Part shown: positions 46,030 to 57,478 of the stretch, one piece after another
Layout: each line of letters opens with the position of its first letter
Position numbering within the stretch: position 1 is the first letter of the stretch
Assembly: GCF_000517085.1 (NCBI RefSeq)
Contig: NZ_KI912107.1
Coordinates: forward strand, 3,841,980-3,905,979
Direction: 5' to 3'
From: Saccharicrinis fermentans DSM 9555 = JCM 21142
Lineage (GTDB): Bacteria > Bacteroidota > Bacteroidia > Bacteroidales > Marinilabiliaceae
DNA: 64,000 nt
Notes under the pieces: model-generated
What the model saw: the letters and a program-made list of their open reading frames with translations, nothing else
Database searches by the model: none
What the model was told of the DNA's origin: nothing
Made by a program: the position numbers and the translations under genes

Positions 46030-47205
46030 CAATAGCATCCTAAACGATTTAAAAAATGTGAGTAGAATATTAAGTATCTCAAATTATCTTTGAGTTGCAC
46101 AACAAAAAAATCTTCTCATATGTCAAAGATAAATTTATTCTCTCAGATTATTTCAAAACTGGATCGCGGTTTGTTTAATTCGATAGTAAAGGAACGCGAA
46201 ACAGATAAGCATCAAAAAGGTTATAGCAGCTGGACACATCTAGCTTCAATGCTTTTTTGCCAATTTGCGAAAAGTCAATCAGTACGAAGTATAAGCATGG
46301 CTTAAAATCCGCAACAGGCAATTTAAATCACTTAGGGATACCCAAAGCACCCCCAAAGCCTACAATTAGCTATCAAAACAAGAATCGAGACTAGCAACTT
46401 TTTAAAAATTACTATCTTAAGCTTTTCTCGCAATTAGGACCGCAGACAAATTTCAGACACACAAAATTCCGTATAAAGTCAAAAATATTTCTGCTAGACT
46501 AATCAACCATAAGCCTTTGTTTAAACTTATTCGATTGGGCAAAATATAAAACAAATAAAGATGCAGTAAAGATGCACAGATTGCTTGATTATGATGGAAA
46601 TTTAACAGCCTATATTAATATTACCAATGGCAAAACAGCTGATAATAAAGGGGCGTATAACGTGCCGCTACTGGCCAATAGTGTAATCGTTACTAACAGG
46701 TATTATAACGACTTCTCTCTTTTAGATGTTTAAGACAGTAACTCTGTATATTTTGTAGTTCGCCATAAAGAAAACTTGAATTTCAAAACGATAAAAGAAA
46801 ATAAACTACCCGACAATAGGCACCAACACGTACTTGTAGATGAAATTATTGAGATATTCTTCAGAGAGACAAAACAGCTTCTGCACTTAAATCATTAATC
46901 GGAACAAGTGAAAATGCTGTAATGATTCAGGTTTGGACAGCCTTAATTACCATACTTGTCCGAAAATACTTAAAAGCTCTTTCTGAATTTGGATGGAGAC
47001 TATCAAATCTTGTTGCCTTTATTCGCTTGAATCTCTTTGTGAAAATTGATCTTCAAAAATGGTTAGATAAACCTTTTGAGGATCCCCCTGAGAATAGACC
47101 TAATGCCATACAAGGGGTTTTGTTTTAAAATATGAATTCTATGAGCTCTAAACCCATTGTATTCTCGATGTCTCCTCGCTTAAAAATTTATTTAGGACGC
47201 TATTG
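46030..47205 (+). mobile_element. IS4-like insertion sequence relic (1176 bp)
   Basis: Ends CAATAGCATCCTAAA (46030) and the complement of CAATAGCGTCCTAAA (ending 47205) are inverted repeats with one mismatch. ATTACAGAC flanks both sides (46021-46029 and 47206-47214), a 9-bp target duplication. It landed immediately after the stop codon of the oxoamine synthase. Confidence 0.88.
46120..47128 (+). pseudogene. IS4-family transposase (DUF4372 N-terminus), multiply frameshifted
   Basis: Opening MSKINLFSQIISKLDRGLFN, then KGYSSWTHLASMLFCQFAKS, is the DUF4372 domain of Bacteroidota IS4-like transposases. Several stops and frameshifts follow; later pieces read KMHRLLDYDGNLTAYINITN and VLVDEIIEIF, ending with NLFVKIDLQKWLDKPFEDPP. 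Inactive. Confidence 0.82.
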
Positions 47206-48333: not shown

Positions 48334-48672
48334 ATGAATACGGAAAAAGTGCTTCTAAAAAACGAAACCTGCATAAAGCAAGTAAGATACTCTGATATAA
48401 CTCACATTTCAATTTGTGGAGATTGTTCAACCTTCATGTTAAATGATACATCATCATTCTCTTTATCTAAATCTTTGAATGAAATAAGCAAAAAACTTCC
48501 AGATTATTTTATACGAGTTAACCGAAATTACATTATAAATTCTGAACATATTCAAGAATTTAGGTATAAATCAAGAAAAATTACACTTGAGGGAAATATC
48601 ACTTTTACTGTTTCTCATCGAAACCTAAAGCTTGTAAAAGACACTTTAAGCGCCATCTCTTTTAACTTATAA
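48334..48672 (+). CDS. LytTR DNA-binding domain protein (regulator of the RiPP locus)
   Basis: 112 residues, a stand-alone LytTR domain: YSDITHISICGDCSTFML (first strands), SLSKSLNEISKKLPDYFIRVNRNYIIN and the basic EFRYKSRKITLEGNITFTVSHR. No receiver domain, so the signal must come from elsewhere. LytTR proteins often regulate peptide production in a density-dependent way. First gene of the plus-strand run to 54810; the radical SAM gene starts 21 bp later. Confidence 0.88.
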   Translation: MNTEKVLLKNETCIKQVRYSDITHISICGDCSTFMLNDTSSFSLSKSLNEISKKLPDYFIRVNRNYIINSEHIQEFRYKSRKITLEGNITFTVSHRNLKLVKDTLSAISFNL

Positions 48673-48693
48673 AAATTATAAAATATAACAATA

Positions 48694-49980
48694 ATGAAAT
48701 TAAGCATTTATAACTCATATATAAAACTATCTGAAGATCAGGCATTTTTATTTAACTCTAAAAGTAATGAATATCTGATATTTGATCCTATATATATTAG
48801 TGATTTCAACAATCTTAGTATTTACAAACTCCCCAGTGAGCTGAAAGAAAATATGAAAAAAGGAGGTTTTTTACTTCTAGATGACGACTACAATGAGACT
48901 ACCTCACTAATTGAGCATCGTAAAAGTTTATATGCCGACAAAAGCAAATATATCCTTACAATAAATCCAACATTAAACTGTAATCTAAATTGCTGGTATT
49001 GCTATGAAACAAAAGATACTGGAAAAATGTCCGATAAATTATTAAACTCTGTCTTATTATTTATCGAGAACACCATTGAAAATATTAAGGAACTTAAAAT
49101 GTTTGAATTATCCTTTTTTGGCGGAGAGCCTCTTCTTTGCTATAAAACGATTATACAGCCATGTATAAAGCAAGCAAAACTTCTATGTAAAAAAAACAAT
49201 ATTGAATTAACCATTGGTTTTACAACCAACGCTTATCTTTTAAATGATAACATTATAAATGATTTGAAAGGAGAAACAAAAGTAGCTTTTCAAATAACAT
49301 TAGATGGCAATAGAGAGCTACATAATCAAACACGATTTTTACAGAACAAAAAAGGTACCTATGACACTATTGTTAACAATATTAAGAAATTAGTTGCCAT
49401 AGAAAATATTCATACTACACTTCGATTCAACTGCACAAAAGAAAATCTTTCAAGTCTAATTGAGGTATTACCCGATATTGAAGGCATCGATGATATCCAA
49501 AGAAAGAGAATGGATTTAGCATTCGAGCGAGTATGGCAAGATTATGACAATGGAGATATTAAAGATCTAATGAATTTAGTACAAAAGCAATTTGAAGAAA
49601 AAGGTTTCTTTATTGATGATATAGACTATCTAGCTACCCCAATGTGGTGCGAAGGAAATAAACTAAATTCTTCTATCATCAATTACAATGGTGAAGTCTT
49701 CAAATGTACAGCCAGAGACTTTCAATCAGAAAAAAAAGAAGGAAAGTTAGATGATAAAGGAGAAATTATTTGGGATAAAGAGAAAGTAGATGCTAGATAT
49801 AATGCTCTATTTTCAAGTTCCCTATGTTTTGAATGTAGAATAGCTCACATATGTACAGAAAGATGTGCTCAAAAAACATTAGAAAATGGTGTTAATGGAT
49901 GTCCTTATGATGAAAAAGAGAAAGATGAATTAATACTTAATAGGTTTTATGCCCAAATATTCGAAAGGGTAAGTGTATGA
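48694..49980 (+). CDS. Radical SAM/SPASM peptide maturase
   Basis: 428 residues. An N-terminal region of about 85 residues (MKLSIYNSYIKLSEDQAFLF) could bind the precursor leader. The SAM cluster motif is C96, C100, C103 (NCNLNCWYCYE), followed by FFGGEPLL. The SPASM part has cysteines in MWCEGNK, VFKCTARD, SLCFECRIAHICTERC and NGCPYDE, enough for two auxiliary clusters. Such enzymes install thioether or carbon-carbon cross-links in ribosomal peptides. The stop overlaps the exporter start (ATGA), so they are coupled. Confidence 0.92.
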   Translation: MKLSIYNSYIKLSEDQAFLFNSKSNEYLIFDPIYISDFNNLSIYKLPSELKENMKKGGFLLLDDDYNETTSLIEHRKSLYADKSKYILTINPTLNCNLNCWYCYETKDTGKMSDKLLNSVLLFIENTIENIKELKMFELSFFGGEPLLCYKTIIQPCIKQAKLLCKKNNIELTIGFTTNAYLLNDNIINDLKGETKVAFQITLDGNRELHNQTRFLQNKKGTYDTIVNNIKKLVAIENIHTTLRFNCTKENLSSLIEVLPDIEGIDDIQRKRMDLAFERVWQDYDNGDIKDLMNLVQKQFEEKGFFIDDIDYLATPMWCEGNKLNSSIINYNGEVFKCTARDFQSEKKEGKLDDKGEIIWDKEKVDARYNALFSSSLCFECRIAHICTERCAQKTLENGVNGCPYDEKEKDELILNRFYAQIFERVSV

Positions 49981-52184
49981 ATTTTCCTTATTATCATCAG
50001 TTAGACTCTAACGATTGTGGACCTACTTGTCTTCAAATGGTATCTAAATATTATGGAAAAAAAATATCAATAGAAGACATAAGAAAATTAGTTGACGTAA
50101 GTAGTTCAGGTATTACACTGCAAGATTTATGCTCTGCCGCTTCGAAATTAAAAATAGACTCAGAGGCAGTAAAAATAAATGTAAAAGAAATGGTATTAAT
50201 GCCATTACCTGCAATATTATTCTGGAAACAAAATCATTTCGTTGTTCTATATAAAATTGATCAAAAAAAGAAAAGGTATTACATCGCTGACCCCTCTTTT
50301 GGTTTAACAAAATTAAACGAAGAAGACTTTATTAGAAACTGGTTAGGTGTATCTACCACCCAAAATGAGAGAGGGATTGTTCTATTATTAGAACCTCAGA
50401 GAGAGTTTAACCGTCCAGATAATACTTCAAATAAAATAAAACCTAAGAATAGTATTTTAAAATATATCTATTCAATTTTTGCAAACAATACTAAATCTTA
50501 CATCGTTGCATTATTACTGATGGGATTAGCCCTGCTAATGAACTGGTTAATTCCCACCATATTTCAACGAGTAATAGATGATGGTATTAAAAAAAAGCAC
50601 GTTAATTTAGTACAAATTTTAATTTTTGGTCAATTAGCTTGTTCTGTTGGTTATATTATATTTATAACTCTATATGAGTTTATTTTATTAAAAGTTAACT
50701 TCAAATTATCTATTAACTTTCTAAGAAGTTTCCTAACCAAAGTTACAGAACTACCTATCTCATTTTTTCTTAAAAGAGTAAGTTCAGACTTACTCCAAAG
50801 GATACAAGATCTTGAAATATTACAAAGGTTTTTAACAAACCATGCCATTAGTTTCTTAATCACCTTAGCAAACTTTATTATGTTCATAGTATTATTATCG
50901 AACTATAATATGGCAATAGCATCTATATATATATGCTCAAATATTCTTGTATTCTTTTGGATAAGTTTTTTCTTTAAAAAGCGCAAAATCCTTGATTACA
51001 ACAGGTTTTCAGTAGATTCGGAATATAAAAATAAATATTTTGAGCTAGTAACAGGTATGCCAGATATCAAGGTTAACAACGCAAGTAAAATAAAAATTAA
51101 TAATTTACAATCTGTTTTAAATAAAATAAACTCCTTACAATTAAAAACTTTAAAAACTGAAAATTATCAAACGGTTGGCTCTGATATCCTGGACACTATA
51201 AGAAATGTCTGTATACTTGGTTTATGTTCATATTGGGTAATTGAAAATAAGTTAACCCTAGGGCAAATGCTTAGTATTAATTACATACTTGGTCAGTTAG
51301 GAGGAACACTGAGATTTTTTACAAATTTTTCAAGAGATTACCAAGATGCAAAGATATCATTAGATCGGTTAAATGATATCAACAATACCTCAAAAGAACT
51401 AGATCGTTATAATCCAGATAGACAAACACAACTTTCAAAGAATATAATTTTCAAGAACGTATATTTTAAATATTCAACGAATAATCAAGACTACATATTA
51501 AAAAATATAAATCTTGAAATAAAGAAAGGTACAATAAATGCCATTGTTGGTGAAAGCGGAAGTGGAAAAACAACAATCTCTAAATTGCTACTCGGATTTT
51601 ATCCTCCAACGAAAGGGAATATTTTCATTGACCATCATCCTATCTCTGATATTAACATCGATTCTTGGAGATCAAGTTGTGGAGTAGTTCTTCAGGAAGG
51701 ATATATATTTAGCGGCAGCTTTATAGAAAACATTTCTATGACATCTACCAGTGTTGATATTAACAAAATAAAACAAGCTGCTAAGATTGCATGTATAGAT
51801 CAATTTATAGAGTCTCTTCCTATGGAATATAATTCCATAATTGGAAATAATGGAATATGTTTAAGTGGAGGTGAAAAACAAAGAATATTAATCGCAAGAG
51901 CTATTTATAAGAACCCTAAAATATTAATATTAGACGAAGCAACAAATGCTTTAGATACTAGAAATGAGATGGAAATTAGCAAAAATTTCATCAATTATTT
52001 TTATAATAAAACGGTGGTTATTATAGCTCATAGGTTAAGCACAATTAAGCAAGCCGATAATATATTAGTCATGAAGAAAGGGAGTGTAATAGAACAAGGA
52101 ACTCATAATGATTTACTAAATAATACGCAAAATCATTATTATTCTCTGGTAAAAAATCAATTACAATTAGAATATACAACTTAA
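49977..52184 (+). CDS. C39-peptidase ABC exporter (PCAT)
   Basis: 735 residues. The N-terminal C39 peptidase has catalytic C14 (NDCGPTCLQMV), H87 (NHFVVLY) and D105 (IADPSFG); six membrane helices follow (about 165-440); the ATPase has Walker A VGESGSGKTTISKLLLGF, signature LSGGEKQRILIARAI and Walker B ILILDEATNALD, with H-loop IIAHRLST. It should cut the leader from a peptide at a GG/GA-type site and export the core across the inner membrane. No HlyD-type adaptor gene is present, which is unusual. Confidence 0.95.
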   Translation: MNFPYYHQLDSNDCGPTCLQMVSKYYGKKISIEDIRKLVDVSSSGITLQDLCSAASKLKIDSEAVKINVKEMVLMPLPAILFWKQNHFVVLYKIDQKKKRYYIADPSFGLTKLNEEDFIRNWLGVSTTQNERGIVLLLEPQREFNRPDNTSNKIKPKNSILKYIYSIFANNTKSYIVALLLMGLALLMNWLIPTIFQRVIDDGIKKKHVNLVQILIFGQLACSVGYIIFITLYEFILLKVNFKLSINFLRSFLTKVTELPISFFLKRVSSDLLQRIQDLEILQRFLTNHAISFLITLANFIMFIVLLSNYNMAIASIYICSNILVFFWISFFFKKRKILDYNRFSVDSEYKNKYFELVTGMPDIKVNNASKIKINNLQSVLNKINSLQLKTLKTENYQTVGSDILDTIRNVCILGLCSYWVIENKLTLGQMLSINYILGQLGGTLRFFTNFSRDYQDAKISLDRLNDINNTSKELDRYNPDRQTQLSKNIIFKNVYFKYSTNNQDYILKNINLEIKKGTINAIVGESGSGKTTISKLLLGFYPPTKGNIFIDHHPISDINIDSWRSSCGVVLQEGYIFSGSFIENISMTSTSVDINKIKQAAKIACIDQFIESLPMEYNSIIGNNGICLSGGEKQRILIARAIYKNPKILILDEATNALDTRNEMEISKNFINYFYNKTVVIIAHRLSTIKQADNILVMKKGSVIEQGTHNDLLNNTQNHYYSLVKNQLQLEYTT

Positions 52185-52197
52185 CTAAACTAACATA

Positions 52198-54525
52198 ATG
52201 GAAAAGTATAATTTAATATTTTTATTACTTCTTATAAATAACATAAACACTATTGCACAAAAGGTTCACCTAAAAGGTGATGTAGTTGATACGCAGAATA
52301 TACCGATAGATTATTTTACAGTAGCATTATTAAATAATAGTGATTCCAGTATTATAACTGGGGGAGCATATTTGAATGGAAAATTTAATATCGAACATAA
52401 CGATACTAATTCTTGTATTATACAAATATCAAGTGTAGGATATCAACAAATTCTTCAATTAATACAGATAAATAACTCCCTAAATCTAGGCACATTTAAA
52501 ATGAATGGCTTAGACATCGAAGAAGTAGTGGTAGCTGCAAGAAAACCTAAAATAAAACAAAAAGAAGGTAGAACTATAATTTCTGTTGAAGGTACCGCAT
52601 TAGAGGAACTTGGAAATTCCATAGATGTACTCAAAAACACTCCCGCTGTTCAAGTAAATAATGATGGAAAAATAAGCATATTCGGAAAAGGCTCACCTTT
52701 AATCATAATAGATGGTCGCGAAATAAGTTCAACACATGAGTTGGATATCCTTCAATCTTCTAATATAAAAACCATTGAAGTAGATAAGAGTCCATCAGTA
52801 GCAACAAAATCGGATGTAAGCTCTGTTATAAAAATAACCACAAAAAATAAAAGTAATTTTAGCGCAGAACTCTATAACCGTTCCTATTTTGGAAGAAAAT
52901 TTAGTAATAAAACAGGGATAAATATTGTCCAGCCATATGAAAAAATAAGAAATATAATTTCGTACAGCTTTTATAAGAACAATAAAGAATATTATAATGA
53001 TGATTATGATATAAACAATAGGTCCGATTACCAAATACAAAATACTACATACTCCAAAAACTATCCGTCTAGTTCTTCTCACAACTTTCTGACAGGAATA
53101 GAATACGACCATGATTCAACTAATACAACAAGAATATTATATCACTTTAACGGATATAATGAAGACTTTTCTAAATTTACCCTCCAGCAAATCATAAAAA
53201 GCAATTCTCCAGATACGGTTCACAGAGAAATTTCCTTAAATACCATAGAAAAAACATATCAACACAATATTAGCATTAATCATACTAAGAGTTTTTCTCC
53301 ATCAAGTTCACTTTATGTTTCAACAGATTATGCCAAGGTAGTAGGTAAGGAAAATACTAATATTAAAGAAGCAACAACAAATCTAATTAATACCCAAAAC
53401 AAGAATAAAGATGATTACAATGTTTTTACATTTAACAGCCATTACAATAATGGACTAAATGAAAATACTAGTATAAATGCAGGTCTGAGAGCTGCATTTA
53501 TTAATAATAACGGAACTACTTCTTCTGTTAATTTAGATGAGGAGCAAATCAATTATTGGGATAAACAAACTACCAAAGATCTTGTATCAGCAATATATTT
53601 TTCATACAACCATAGTAAAAATAAAGTTGATTATGAATTTGGATTAAGAGCAGAACATACCAATACACATGCAAACCTTAATGAAATGGTTATTATAGAC
53701 AGTTCATATATTCATGTATTCCCATCCTTATTAGCATCTTACTCTCCTTCAAATAAATTTGGTATAAGTATGCACTATAATCACAAAATTGAACGTCCGT
53801 ATTTTTCAGACCTTAACCCTACCCAAACATACTATGATTCACTATCTTACAGACAGGGCAATCCCTTTCTAAAACCAACTATAAAGAAGAACTTGGCTTT
53901 AAACGTTGAATTGCCATGGGGTTTATCTCTCTCATCTGAATATACCCGTTATACTAATATGATTGTTCTTGCTGCAACCAATGATTCAGAAAATCCAGAT
54001 ATTATTAAATATACTCCGATAAATATTGATGAATCAGAAAGAATTCTTCTTGGCCTAATCAAAGCTTATGATGGTAAAATACATAGCTATAGTATATCTG
54101 GAGGAATAGAATTTCCTTTTATTAAAATACCGTATCTAGGAGAAACAAAACAAGTAAGAACAAATAGCTGGTACTTATCCATAAATAATGACATTAGCAT
54201 TGGAAACAAAATCATGCTTTATTCAAGTTTTGATTATTATAGCAAAAGTGTTGATGCAATAACAACCTATGATAGTTATTATAACTTATGGGCAAGTGCT
54301 AGTTTAAAACTATTGGACAAACAATTGGTAATATCATTAGATATGGATAACATACTAAATTCTAATAATATTAATTGGGAAGATAACTATGAATATATAA
54401 CAAATGGTGGGAAAAATGATTTTGATAATAGAATTGTTAGGATATCCGTTAAATATACGTTTAAAAATTTCAAGGATATTTTTAATACAGATAGCAATAA
54501 TTCTCAAGAATTAGATCGTTTATGA
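52198..54525 (+). CDS. Outer-membrane beta-barrel protein (TonB-receptor-like, OMP_b-brl_3)
   Basis: 775 residues. Signal peptide (1-20), a carboxypeptidase-regulatory-like fold (about 22-105, LKGDVVDTQNIPIDYFTVAL), a plug-like domain with NSIDVLKNTPAVQVNNDGKI and IIIDGREISS, and a long barrel rich in alternating aromatic residues. This architecture is found in Bacteroidota RiPP loci and may pass the peptide through the outer membrane or serve self-immunity. It begins 13 bp after the exporter; its stop overlaps a small ORF by ATGA. Confidence 0.85.
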   Translation: MEKYNLIFLLLLINNINTIAQKVHLKGDVVDTQNIPIDYFTVALLNNSDSSIITGGAYLNGKFNIEHNDTNSCIIQISSVGYQQILQLIQINNSLNLGTFKMNGLDIEEVVVAARKPKIKQKEGRTIISVEGTALEELGNSIDVLKNTPAVQVNNDGKISIFGKGSPLIIIDGREISSTHELDILQSSNIKTIEVDKSPSVATKSDVSSVIKITTKNKSNFSAELYNRSYFGRKFSNKTGINIVQPYEKIRNIISYSFYKNNKEYYNDDYDINNRSDYQIQNTTYSKNYPSSSSHNFLTGIEYDHDSTNTTRILYHFNGYNEDFSKFTLQQIIKSNSPDTVHREISLNTIEKTYQHNISINHTKSFSPSSSLYVSTDYAKVVGKENTNIKEATTNLINTQNKNKDDYNVFTFNSHYNNGLNENTSINAGLRAAFINNNGTTSSVNLDEEQINYWDKQTTKDLVSAIYFSYNHSKNKVDYEFGLRAEHTNTHANLNEMVIIDSSYIHVFPSLLASYSPSNKFGISMHYNHKIERPYFSDLNPTQTYYDSLSYRQGNPFLKPTIKKNLALNVELPWGLSLSSEYTRYTNMIVLAATNDSENPDIIKYTPINIDESERILLGLIKAYDGKIHSYSISGGIEFPFIKIPYLGETKQVRTNSWYLSINNDISIGNKIMLYSSFDYYSKSVDAITTYDSYYNLWASASLKLLDKQLVISLDMDNILNSNNINWEDNYEYITNGGKNDFDNRIVRISVKYTFKNFKDIFNTDSNNSQELDRL

Positions 54526-54632
54526 GAAGTTCACTTATCGACCAAGAAGACACGCTTATAGATTACATCGCACACTATGTTATACATCTAACTATCATTA
54601 CTATATTGGATGTATTATTAACAAATAAATGA
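54522..54632 (+). CDS. 36-residue ORF coupled to the barrel protein
   Basis: Starts within the barrel stop (ATGA) and ends 7 bp before the precursor start. MRSSLIDQEDTLIDYIAHYV continues with a hydrophobic segment HLTIITILDVLLTNK. It could be a small membrane or immunity peptide, or a chance frame; the tight packing on both sides favours translation. No family is recognised. Confidence 0.4.
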   Translation: MRSSLIDQEDTLIDYIAHYVIHLTIITILDVLLTNK

Positions 54633-54639
54633 ATTCACT

Positions 54640-54810
54640 ATGTCAAAAATTGAAAAAATTAAAAGCTTCGTAGCAACATTGGAACCTAATCAATTAGTAG
54701 ATCAAAAAGCAATGCTAGTAAGCGGTGCAAGCGCTGCTGATAGTGAGGTTACTAAAAATAAACGTAATAAAAAATGTTGCAACACAGAGAAGGTACTTTC
54801 TAAGATCTAA
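54640..54810 (+). CDS. RiPP precursor-like peptide (56 residues, Cys-Cys)
   Basis: MSKIEKIKSFVATLEPNQLV begins an acidic/hydrophobic leader; LVSGASAADSEV has a GA (or GAS) site suitable for C39 cleavage after residue 30; the remaining 26-residue core is basic and hydrophilic with C46-C47 in NKRNKKCCNTEKVL. It lies last in the LytTR-radical SAM-exporter-barrel run and right before a terminator, as precursors often do. The leader-peptidase-exporter logic makes it the probable substrate of the maturase. Alternative: an unrelated small protein; moderately sure. Confidence 0.75.
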   Translation: MSKIEKIKSFVATLEPNQLVDQKAMLVSGASAADSEVTKNKRNKKCCNTEKVLSKI

Positions 54811-54860
54811 CTTTTTAGGGAAGGAATATTTCTTCAATATCTTTCCATCATGTTGAAATT

Positions 54861-54885
54861 AAAGTCGGTGTAGTGCCGACTTTTT
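54861..54885 (+). terminator. Terminator of the RiPP operon
   Basis: AAAGTCGG and CCGACTTT form a perfect stem with loop TGTAGTG, followed by TTTCT. It lies 50 bp after the precursor stop. Confidence 0.88.
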
Positions 54886-55184
54886 CTGTACCATTCAACA
54901 AAAAATAACCAATTCCAACCAATCACGACAAACCATAACCAAACACAACCAACTCCACACCATAAGCCTACTTTATAGTAAATATGCGGTCTACTACTGG
55001 ATACAGCGGTTCGATTTATGCCACCCATTTCGGATTCATTGTGCCAGTGATTTCGGTTTAAACTGTGCCACTAACAACGAGTAAGTAATTCGAGGCACGT
55101 TTCTAATTGTGCCATTTGTTTCGGTTCAATTTGTGCCACTTTGAAAGATCAAGTAAAAACTACTATATCGCTAAAAAAAGCGGT

Positions 55185-56738
55185 ATGGCCAATAAACTTG
55201 ATCCCATGGATTTAAAACAGATAATTACGCTTCATCAAGATGGAGTGAGCAATCGTAAGATTGAGTCATTACTCGGTATCTCACGCAATACCATTAATAC
55301 ATACATGAAGCTCTTCAAGGCCTGTGCCTATAGCTTTGACGAACTGCTCTTGTTCGATAATATTAAACTTAGAGAGCTATTCCCTTCTCATACGACCATT
55401 GATAATGACCGCTACAATGAACTAATGCAGCATTTTGAACGCATTAATGCAGCAATAAATCATCCAGGCTTTACTTTTCTCTTTCATTATAACGAGTATA
55501 AACAACAGGCTAAAGATCCCTATGGTTATACCCAGTTTATGGAGCATTACAATCGAAAACATGCCAAAATTAAAGGTTCTATGAAACTTGAGCATGAAGC
55601 CGGTTATGAGGTGTTTATTGATTATGCAGGTAAGAAACTTCATATTGTAGATAAAGAAACTGGAGAGCAGGTTCCTGTTGAAGTATTTGTAGCCATCTTG
55701 CCCAATAGTCAGTATACCTATGTTGAGGCTTCTATGAGCCAGAAACGAGAAGATATGATTACGAGCATGGGCAACGCATTATCGTATTATGGCAGTGTTC
55801 CAAAGGCTATTGTATCCGACAATCTCAAATCAGCAGTCACAAGAGCTAGTAAGTATGAACCTGATGTCAATCGATCCTTTAAAGATTTTGCGCGTCATTA
55901 TAACTGTGCTATTAACCCTACCCGAAGTTATGCTCCGCAAGATAAGGCACTGGTCGAAAACGCCGTTCAATTGGCCTATCAACGTATTTATTATCCCATT
56001 AGAGAAATGACTTTTTTTTCGTTGGAAGAGCTCAATCTGGAAATTAAAAAACGGCTTATCGATTATAACAACCGCCTGCTAGCACGAAAAGGAGCCAGCA
56101 GAAAAGAGCTCTTCCAATCTATTGAGCGAAGTTACTTAAAGCCACTTCCATCGTTGGGTTACGAACTTAAAGATTATCGTAGAGCCAAGGTGCAAAAGAT
56201 GGGCTATGTATATTTTTCTCCCGACAAAAATTATTACAGTGTTCCGCATCGATATATTGGAAAATCAACACAGATTCATTATACAAAATCAACTGTGGAG
56301 GTCTTTTATAATCATGAACGAATAGCATCTCATCAGCGCAATCCTGCGATGGGCATTTACATTACCAACAAAAACCATTTGAGCAGTACGCACAAGGCAT
56401 ATACCGAATGGAGCCCTTCTTATTTTGAGAAAAAAGCCGCTAAGCATGGTGTCCATGTAGTAGCTTGCATTCAAGGTGTAATAAGTAATAGTATCTATCC
56501 TGAAATTGCCTATAAAAGGGCTATGGGCATTATTCAACTTCATCGCACCTATAGCTCCGAGAGACTCAATAATGCTTGTAAGAGAGCTGTTGAGGCAGGT
56601 GCCTTTTCCTACAAGCGCATACAAAATATCTTAAAGAATAATTTGGACAAAGAAGGTACTGTGGAGCAAATGCAAGCGTCCAATACACCACACATTCCTA
56701 CACACGAAAATTTACATGGAGCTTCGGCTTATAAATAA
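55185..56738 (+). CDS. istA: IS21 transposase IstA
   Basis: 517 residues from the ATG at 55185 (MANKLDPMDLKQIITLHQDG); an upstream in-frame start at 55107 lies inside the terminal repeats and is unlikely. HTH GVSNRKIESLLGISRNTINTY, DDE core with VFIDYAGKKLHIVD (first Asp), AIVSDNLKSAVTRA (second Asp) and APQDKALVENAVQLAY (Glu). The C-terminal SH3-like domain follows. istB starts 2 bp after the stop. Confidence 0.92.
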   Translation: MANKLDPMDLKQIITLHQDGVSNRKIESLLGISRNTINTYMKLFKACAYSFDELLLFDNIKLRELFPSHTTIDNDRYNELMQHFERINAAINHPGFTFLFHYNEYKQQAKDPYGYTQFMEHYNRKHAKIKGSMKLEHEAGYEVFIDYAGKKLHIVDKETGEQVPVEVFVAILPNSQYTYVEASMSQKREDMITSMGNALSYYGSVPKAIVSDNLKSAVTRASKYEPDVNRSFKDFARHYNCAINPTRSYAPQDKALVENAVQLAYQRIYYPIREMTFFSLEELNLEIKKRLIDYNNRLLARKGASRKELFQSIERSYLKPLPSLGYELKDYRRAKVQKMGYVYFSPDKNYYSVPHRYIGKSTQIHYTKSTVEVFYNHERIASHQRNPAMGIYITNKNHLSSTHKAYTEWSPSYFEKKAAKHGVHVVACIQGVISNSIYPEIAYKRAMGIIQLHRTYSSERLNNACKRAVEAGAFSYKRIQNILKNNLDKEGTVEQMQASNTPHIPTHENLHGASAYK

Positions 56739-56740
56739 AA

Positions 56741-57478
56741 ATGAACAACAATCAAACAATTGAAAAGCTCAGGCAAATGCGCCTAGGAGCTATGGCTGAT
56801 TTACATCTTCAGCATATGAAAAACAATCAATTAACAAATATTACACCTGATGAATATTTGGCTCTACTTACCGATCAGGAGTGGGAATATCGGCAAAACA
56901 GTAAAATTGCAAGGCTGATTGCCCAAGCTGATTTTAAACAAAAAGCTAATGTGGCAGACATTAATTATGGTCCATCCAGAAACTTGGATAAAAACATGTT
57001 TATGCGCTTGGCATCACTTGACTTTTTAAGTAAAAAGGAAAATATAATTGTATCCGGATCTTCTGGCGTTGGGAAAAGTTACTTAGCTCAATCTCTGGGA
57101 CACCAAGCTTGTTTAATGGGTTATAAGGTAATTTATGCCAATACGGCCCGATTGTTCACCAGGCTTAAATTATCTAAGGTAGATGGTACATATTTAAAGG
57201 AGCTAAAGAAGCTATCTAAGGCTAATATACTTATCCTTGATGACTTTGGATTGCAGGCCTTTGATAATCATGCCAGAGAAGCTCTAATGGACATAATAGA
57301 TGATCGATATAATCAAACATCAACCATAGTATCATCACAAATACCTGTTTCTGTCTGGTACGATATTATTGGCGAAGGTACCATAGCCGATGCTATTTTA
57401 GATCGTCTGGTCAACTCATCACATCGTATAGATCTCAAAGGAGAATCTTTAAGAAAAGGATATTTAGTGAGTGAATAA
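56741..57478 (+). CDS. istB: IS21 helper ATPase IstB
   Basis: 245 residues, DnaC-like AAA protein. Walker A SGSSGVGKSYLAQSLG, Walker B ILILDDFGLQAFDNHA, and the typical start TIEKLRQMRLGAMADLHLQH. It selects the target and activates IstA. Confidence 0.94.
   Translation: MNNNQTIEKLRQMRLGAMADLHLQHMKNNQLTNITPDEYLALLTDQEWEYRQNSKIARLIAQADFKQKANVADINYGPSRNLDKNMFMRLASLDFLSKKENIIVSGSSGVGKSYLAQSLGHQACLMGYKVIYANTARLFTRLKLSKVDGTYLKELKKLSKANILILDDFGLQAFDNHAREALMDIIDDRYNQTSTIVSSQIPVSVWYDIIGEGTIADAILDRLVNSSHRIDLKGESLRKGYLVSE

Follow-up and report, generated by a model that had tools for sequence, protein, structure and literature searches.

A compact locus on the forward strand of the Saccharicrinis fermentans DSM 9555 = JCM 21142 genome is very probably a real RiPP operon, and the 56-residue peptide encoded at its end is very probably the precursor. 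The explanation that best accounts for the whole, and that we hold with high confidence, is an operon for making, cross-linking, trimming and exporting a small peptide. The kind of cluster is already known, namely the Bacteroidales clusters with a radical SAM enzyme, a C39 exporter and a GG-leader peptide; within that class, the locus is set apart by its peptide family, its rare operon order and its lone LytTR gene.

Layout and surroundings of the operon

The window, that is, the whole stretch of 64,000 nucleotides that was analysed (contig NZ_KI912107.1, positions 3,841,980 to 3,905,979), comes from a host genome of 5.98 Mb in 4 contigs. Six ORFs, all on the + strand, extend from 48334 to 54810 in the order LytTR, radical SAM/SPASM, C39-ABC exporter, outer-membrane barrel, 36-codon ORF and 56-residue peptide, with their coordinates confirmed. 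The features are as follows:

48334..48672, + strand: 112-aa LytTR DNA-binding protein, stand-alone, lacking a receiver domain (PF04397, E 6e-16, residues 14-105)
48694..49980, + strand: radical SAM/SPASM peptide maturase, 428 aa (PF04055, E 8e-14)
49977..52184, + strand: C39 peptidase ABC exporter (PCAT), 735 aa (PF03412, E 7e-34; PF00664; PF00005)
52198..54525, + strand: 775-aa outer-membrane beta-barrel, with regions resembling CarboxypepD_reg and a plug (PF14905, E 3.7e-57)
54522..54632, + strand: 36-codon candidate ORF with a hydrophobic C-terminal half (ATGA overlap with the barrel gene)
54640..54810, + strand: 56-residue peptide, very probably the precursor (profile searches)
54640..54729, + strand: putative leader, residues 1-30, ending ...LVSGA (homology; proposed C39 cut after A30)
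54730..54807, + strand: putative core, residues 31-56, SAADSEVTKNKRNKKCCNTEKVLSKI, with one C-x-N-x-E unit, C46-C47-N48-T49-E50
54861..54890, + strand: intrinsic terminator with an 8-bp stem, a 7-nt loop and a T-rich tail
55107..57478, + strand: IS21-type istA/istB pair, right flank, outside the system (IstB_IS21, E 1.6e-58; rve, Mu-transpos_C_2)

The initial annotation had described six ORFs packed on one strand and closed by a terminator, and both points were borne out. ATGA overlaps occur at two junctions (maturase/exporter and barrel/36-codon ORF). The first four ORFs fall into clear Pfam families; the two small ORFs matched no model in Pfam or NCBIfam. The terminator hairpin has its arms, AAAGTCGG/CCGACTTT, within 54861-54883 and is followed by a T-rich tail; its folding energy was -11.6 kcal/mol (z -3.2), with 2 of 200 shuffles equally stable, and it was absent from the list of a consensus terminator scanner.

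The C39 domain of the exporter contains the segments SNDCGPTC, QNHFVVL and IADPS, as read in its sequence, and we take its catalytic Cys, His and Asp to lie within them. Leader cutting and product export are the presumed tasks of the exporter. Elsewhere in the host genome, a second C39 peptidase domain was observed in a 255-codon open frame (L066, C3:2474731-2475123). In the barrel, the PF13715 and Plug matches fell under their cut-offs. The 36-codon ORF, which had been reported as a coupled ORF, does overlap the barrel gene by ATGA; its status as a gene found no such backing, with 5.8% of shuffled tails staying open equally long and no homologues in NCBIfam, Pfam or the ORFs of related loci, reduced adaptors included. 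The idea that it is a shrunken HlyD was rejected for want of similarity to those reduced adaptors. No immunity gene was recognised in the operon, and a defence role was rejected, as PADLOC gave general radical SAM and ABC matches only.

The LytTR protein is probably the operon regulator, and as such would control operon transcription. It matched AgrA/LytR models in NCBIfam weakly. A close homologue, also stand-alone, adjoins the maturase locus L041 (E 1.4e-12), one of 30 related loci, and weaker ones in L040 and L032 are each ~9 kb away from the maturase. The Bacteroidota-type promoter motif is TAnnTTTG, and no exact copy was found upstream of the LytTR gene or of the peptide gene. Upstream direct repeats were considered as LytTR sites and dismissed, being a single 11-nt pair that we took as chance.

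G+C content is 29.0% in the locus versus 38.0% in the rest of the window. In addition to the IS21-type pair on the right, the left flank was read as a broken transposase-like stretch (46087-47128) of several short frames. The low G+C, these flanking IS elements and the missing maturase in the eight other genomes of the genus (0/8 with a match) suggest that the locus was horizontally acquired.

Identification of the precursor peptide

That the last small gene encodes the precursor, as initially claimed, was supported by independent profiles. A profile of two relatives' peptides, those beside the related maturases of L031 and L037, with the window peptide left out against circularity, ranked the 56-residue ORF first among the 499 ORFs of the window (E 8.2e-8; the next, 0.2). 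A profile of five relatives' peptides (A6), again with the window peptide left out, had this ORF as its sole match up to E 1 in its own 6 Mb genome (E 7.6e-5); in the other 70 family genomes, it found G069, itself a profile member, and otherwise only weak matches, none with E below 0.06. When the window peptide itself was used in phmmer, the matches were L031 4623-4895 (E 8.4e-5 to 1.3e-4) and, weakly, L037 9021-9281 (E 0.031), both directly upstream of a maturase. The maturases nearest by tree path are likewise those of L037 and L031, in a tree where the branch joining the group of the window maturase is weak (80/7). Two lines of evidence thus make the 56-residue peptide the very probable precursor: the homology of its leader to those of Cys-rich peptides adjoining related maturases, and the presence of the two most similar peptides next to the two maturases nearest by path.

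A genome search for co-conserved pairs of peptide and maturase gave a concordant picture. Profile A1, of which the window peptide is a member, found the precursor in 2 of 71 family genomes and in 4 of 393 order genomes. The two in the family belong to the 4 genomes there that have a maturase match, the four in the order likewise have one, and in every case the peptide is itself an A1 member; precursor matches thus occurred only in maturase-bearing genomes in the two sets. The outcome named beforehand as adverse, related loci consistently without this peptide, did not occur, although most related loci have other GG-leader peptides in place of this leader.

Among the NCBIfam and Pfam models for precursors, none matched the window peptide, TIGR04149 (up to E 1) included. 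The window peptide shares the general design of the TIGR04149 GG-leader precursors of Bacteroidota, which the peptides of the related loci L003 and L041 match weakly, below the cut-off. The TIGR04149 scan took in the window peptide and, of its five leader homologues, all but the second L034 peptide, and matched none of these.

The leader had been proposed to run to about residue 30. MAFFT agrees, aligning G29 with the GG/GA/GS site of the relatives, whereas a profile alignment places the relatives' GG near K39 of the window peptide. Under the C39 leader rule as given in the available part of PMC8277102, the site is GG, GA or GS, preceded by Leu at -12, Glu at -8 and Leu at -7; in the window leader, L19 (-12) and G29-A30 fit, and K23 and A24, at the places of Glu -8 and Leu -7, do not. 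A cut at A30/S31 is likely, not certain.

A shared Cys-x-Asn-x-Asp/Glu unit in the core

The window core has two Cys versus 4-6 in the cores of seven relatives, and it is without the second Cys of the C-x5-C loops seen in several of them. C46 and N48 are invariant in A1. Of the 35 Cys in the seven relatives' cores, 17 have Asn at +2, a count that none of 20000 shuffles reached at any offset from -8 to +8 (highest, 16), bearing in mind that the seven were picked after the motif was seen, which favours it. C-x-N alone carries little weight in the window core (P 0.21 by shuffling). For the longer form C-x-N-x-[DE], 0.40 occurrences would be expected in the cores of the five leader homologues and 5 are present (P 5e-5); the window core has one (P 0.025 by shuffling), the unit having been chosen after it was sighted in the window sequence. 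It reads CCNTE in the window and CTNTE, CANYE, CLNLD, CKNIE and CLNND in the relatives, and is absent in three of the seven: L031, which has the closest peptide, L051 and L047. Cys-X3-[DE] alone is weak, with P 0.06 for the seven relatives, 0.027 for the five and 0.20 for the window; six instances of Cys-X3-Asp/Glu are spread over four of the seven relatives' cores, and one lies in the window core.

Judged by these alignments, the core is an outlier in size yet keeps one family unit. Of the basic 26-residue core with C46-C47 in the initial annotation, the stretch from C46 to E50 stands as a shared unit; the second Cys is not a conserved part of it. In addition, a tandem trio of identical 56-residue, two-Cys precursor-like genes was observed upstream of a related maturase (L038:8411-9238).

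The maturase and its likely chemistry

In an alignment of 24 sequences, the window's included, the radical-SAM cysteines C96, C100 and C103 of the maturase are invariant, and so are C319, C338, C378, C381, C387, C391 and C403, SPASM cysteines included. The best NCBIfam match was TIGR04463, at 158.5 bits, short of the 525 set as its cut-off. A single-sequence search against solved structures gave no match; the corresponding profile search gave CteB as the best solved sequence (E 2.7e-29). The AlphaFold model (pLDDT 86.8, from 22 sequences) likewise has CteB (5why/5wgg) as its closest solved fold (Foldseek E 8e-18), followed by SuiB, anSME, ChlB and TigE. The N-terminal region of the model shows three strands and then three helices, an element order that is RRE-like, as in leader-binding domains.

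The thioether maturase CteB (PDB 5wgg, 5why) is thus the nearest solved enzyme in both sequence and fold. The window maturase is about 20% identical to it, and the operon differs in having an exporter and a barrel of Bacteroidota type; the comparison covers the maturases alone. A second comparison is with the PapB ranthipeptide maturases (PMC9413430, in the part available): the window core has one Cys-X3-Glu, C46-E50, whereas the window maturase scored 112.2 bits against the PapB model NF047865, far under its cut-off of 340, and the cores of three of the seven relatives are without Cys-X3-Asp/Glu. On sequence and model, we lean somewhat towards thioether formation as the chemistry. The best single guess for the link, and the most specific form of the thioether proposal, is C46 to E50 (Cys-X3-Glu); the one Cys-x-Asn-x-Glu unit left in the core would fit such a PapB-like thioether.

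Related loci and the order of genes

Maturase matches were found in 4 of 71 family genomes (E 1e-25), 17 of 393 order genomes (1e-40), 4 of 395 class genomes (1e-55) and 3 of 395 phylum genomes (1e-50), each count including the own genome and the order, class and phylum sets being samples of larger groups. The maturase is thus rare, and its identity to any other is at most 41%. A search of genome contigs by a scan that finds close relatives only returned 6 loci, the best with 40% identity over part of the maturase. Viral contigs held no relative of the locus; among plasmids, six records had a maturase of 26-36% identity, and none matched the peptide or the locus DNA.

The related set comprises 30 loci with 33 maturase rows at E 1e-10 or better. 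Exporter homologues were found by phmmer in 26 of the 30, counting partial ORFs in L006 and L035 and a match in L057 that may be a general ABC match; the four loci without one are L005, L032, L045 and L058, two of which end just past the maturase. Direct matches to the barrel were obtained in 15 of the 30, and 10 of 13 further ORFs, chosen by size or place, matched PF14905.

The position of the precursor at the operon end had been called unusual, and the related set agrees. A precursor-like ORF (38-115 aa, with G[GAS] and at least 2 Cys after it, at most 2.5 kb upstream of the maturase) lies upstream in 26 of the 33 maturase rows, a count in which some single matches are clearly spurious and 2 of the 7 misses lie at contig ends. 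L059 has the window's order of maturase, exporter, barrel and precursor: at L059:15005-15304, a 99-codon, Cys-rich ORF with a GG leader stands 36 bases past the barrel gene. The precursor-last order is therefore rare, not unique.

Two further arrangements were observed among these loci. In L051:1944-3466, on the Rhizosphaericola mali plasmid pB3-10, which is typed as mobilizable, five tandem precursor-like genes with Cys loops lie upstream of a related maturase and a C39 exporter. In L031:4540-4620 (- strand), a terminator-like hairpin and T run, recognised by reading, separate the precursor gene from that of the maturase, an arrangement that might give more precursor than enzyme transcript.

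The closest published counterparts are the Bacteroidales radical SAM and PCAT clusters of Fernandez-Cantos et al. 2023 (PMC10352776), which, in the part of that paper available, share with the window a radical SAM maturase, a C39 exporter and, probably, a GG-type precursor. The window differs in having the precursor last, a GA site and a two-Cys core, and in its LytTR gene, a term absent from the main text of that paper as available. The window peptide may match one of the precursors shown there.

HlyD-type adaptors: absent here, shrunken in some relatives

No HlyD match was found by Pfam among the six operon ORFs. The initial annotation had regarded this lack as unusual, a view that does not hold: in the part of PMC10352776 available, 4 of the 9 Bacteroidales clusters described have an exporter and an OMP and no membrane fusion protein, and how such clusters export is a question raised there. 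The lack is thus common in the class and already published.

The related loci display adaptors of very different sizes. HlyD-type adaptors of full length (380-470 aa) are present in six loci (L003, L006, L039, L042, L048 and L049), and L057 has a weaker match. Shortened adaptors, 153-171 aa long, are found in five (L036, L040, L041, L044 and L046) and, weakly, in a sixth, L051. Anchor-only ORFs measure 47 aa in L043 and 62 aa in L053; another, of 74 aa in L047, is weak. The reduced adaptors adjoin C39 exporter genes:

L036:13781-14266, reduced HlyD adaptor
L040:2564-3043, reduced HlyD adaptor
L041:4319-4834, reduced HlyD adaptor
L044:12824-13285, reduced HlyD adaptor
L046:4289-4783, reduced HlyD adaptor
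L053:12738-12926, reduced HlyD adaptor with nothing past the anchor
L043:12930-13073, reduced HlyD adaptor with nothing past the anchor

They share an anchor like 'ELRSEKVR..IG..P...R.G' and a membrane helix, and Pfam recognised none of them save for a weak HlyD_3 match in L040. Three of the shortened adaptors align only to positions ~10-76 and 325-431 of a 439-position HlyD profile, indicating that the HlyD middle is gone and that the anchor is kept with part of the C-terminal region, a portion of a barrel. The model of one of them shows a membrane helix and then mostly strands (pLDDT 71); its fold search gave nothing at E 0.001 or better, with MacA- and EmrA-type adaptors at E ~0.01-0.02 among unrelated folds. 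No adaptor was found by either search in 10 of the 14 loci of the window's weakly supported tree group (L001, L002, L031, L034, L035, L037, L038, L052, L058 and L059), of which L037 breaks off inside the exporter and neither L035 nor L058 has a complete one. Nothing relevant on shortened adaptors was found in open-access papers.

Type 1 secretion with HlyD and TolC, as for colicin V-like peptides, shares with the window a C39 ABC exporter of a leader peptide; the window operon differs in having no adaptor gene and a barrel of the OMP_b-brl_3 family. A shrinking series, from ~440 residues through 153-171 and a bare anchor of 47-62 to nothing, as here, lies behind a tentative proposal that we consider possible though doubtful: in the window and some relatives, the exporter may work without a periplasm-spanning adaptor, and the product may leave in two steps, C39 release and then barrel passage.

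Discussion

Gene content, the homology of the leader, the pairing of maturase and precursor from locus to locus, the fold class of the maturase and the recurring Cys-x-Asn-x-Asp/Glu unit are all computed results. For the working of the system we infer the following, from binding mode, cut site and link type to barrel direction and the role of the product. The N-terminal region of the maturase would bind the precursor via its N-terminal helix, KIEKIKSFVATLE, and the radical SAM/SPASM enzyme would then most likely form a thioether link. The C39 domain would cut after G29-A30, and the exporter would move a basic product of ~26 residues to the periplasm, from which the co-encoded barrel would be the likely outer-membrane route, either for export or as the producer's own receptor.

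The receptor possibility is central to an explanation that we judge unlikely, in which the product is a C39-processed modified pheromone that feeds back via the stand-alone LytTR protein and has the barrel as its outer-membrane receptor. In Gram-positives, LytTR domains and C39 exporters are used in peptide signalling. The available part of PMC8277102 describes such signalling use of C39 exporters in that group. The LytTR gene is the first of the operon, L041 has a stand-alone LytTR gene nearby as well, and the barrel weakly matches the plug of TonB receptors. The operon, however, is without a kinase or other sensor, and a close LytTR homologue stands at only one of the 30 related loci. We prefer an antagonistic peptide over a signal as the putative role of the product.

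The meagre core raises two further explanations of the locus. In one, which we consider improbable, the locus is a decaying immigrant with maturase and exporter intact, whose precursor has lost most of a Cys-rich core and its GG, leaving little or no active product; the two Cys against 4-6 in seven relatives, GA in place of GG, the low G+C and the IS flanks would all agree with this, but the six ORFs are all open and tightly packed, the leader is preserved enough for profile detection, one C-x-N-x-E unit is retained, and the 56-residue, two-Cys precursor-like genes of L038 exist in three identical copies. In the other, the 56-residue gene is a leftover or accessory peptide and the true precursor of the maturase lies elsewhere in the genome. 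The unusual gene position and poor core invite that idea, which we regard as very improbable indeed: neither the peptide nor the relatives' profile, searched against the own genome, found a second precursor copy, and reading of the ORF list between 46 and 57.5 kb found no other precursor-like ORF.

Taken as a functional RiPP operon with its own precursor, the locus is a good test case for a known class of cluster rather than a surprise in kind. It is a very small, self-contained cluster, with one maturase and one two-Cys substrate, and could serve for testing an uncharacterised branch of Bacteroidota maturases. It offers a definite prediction, a link from C46 to E50, together with five related natural peptides as comparison substrates, and the shrinking-adaptor series makes the printed question of adaptor-less export answerable by gene removal.
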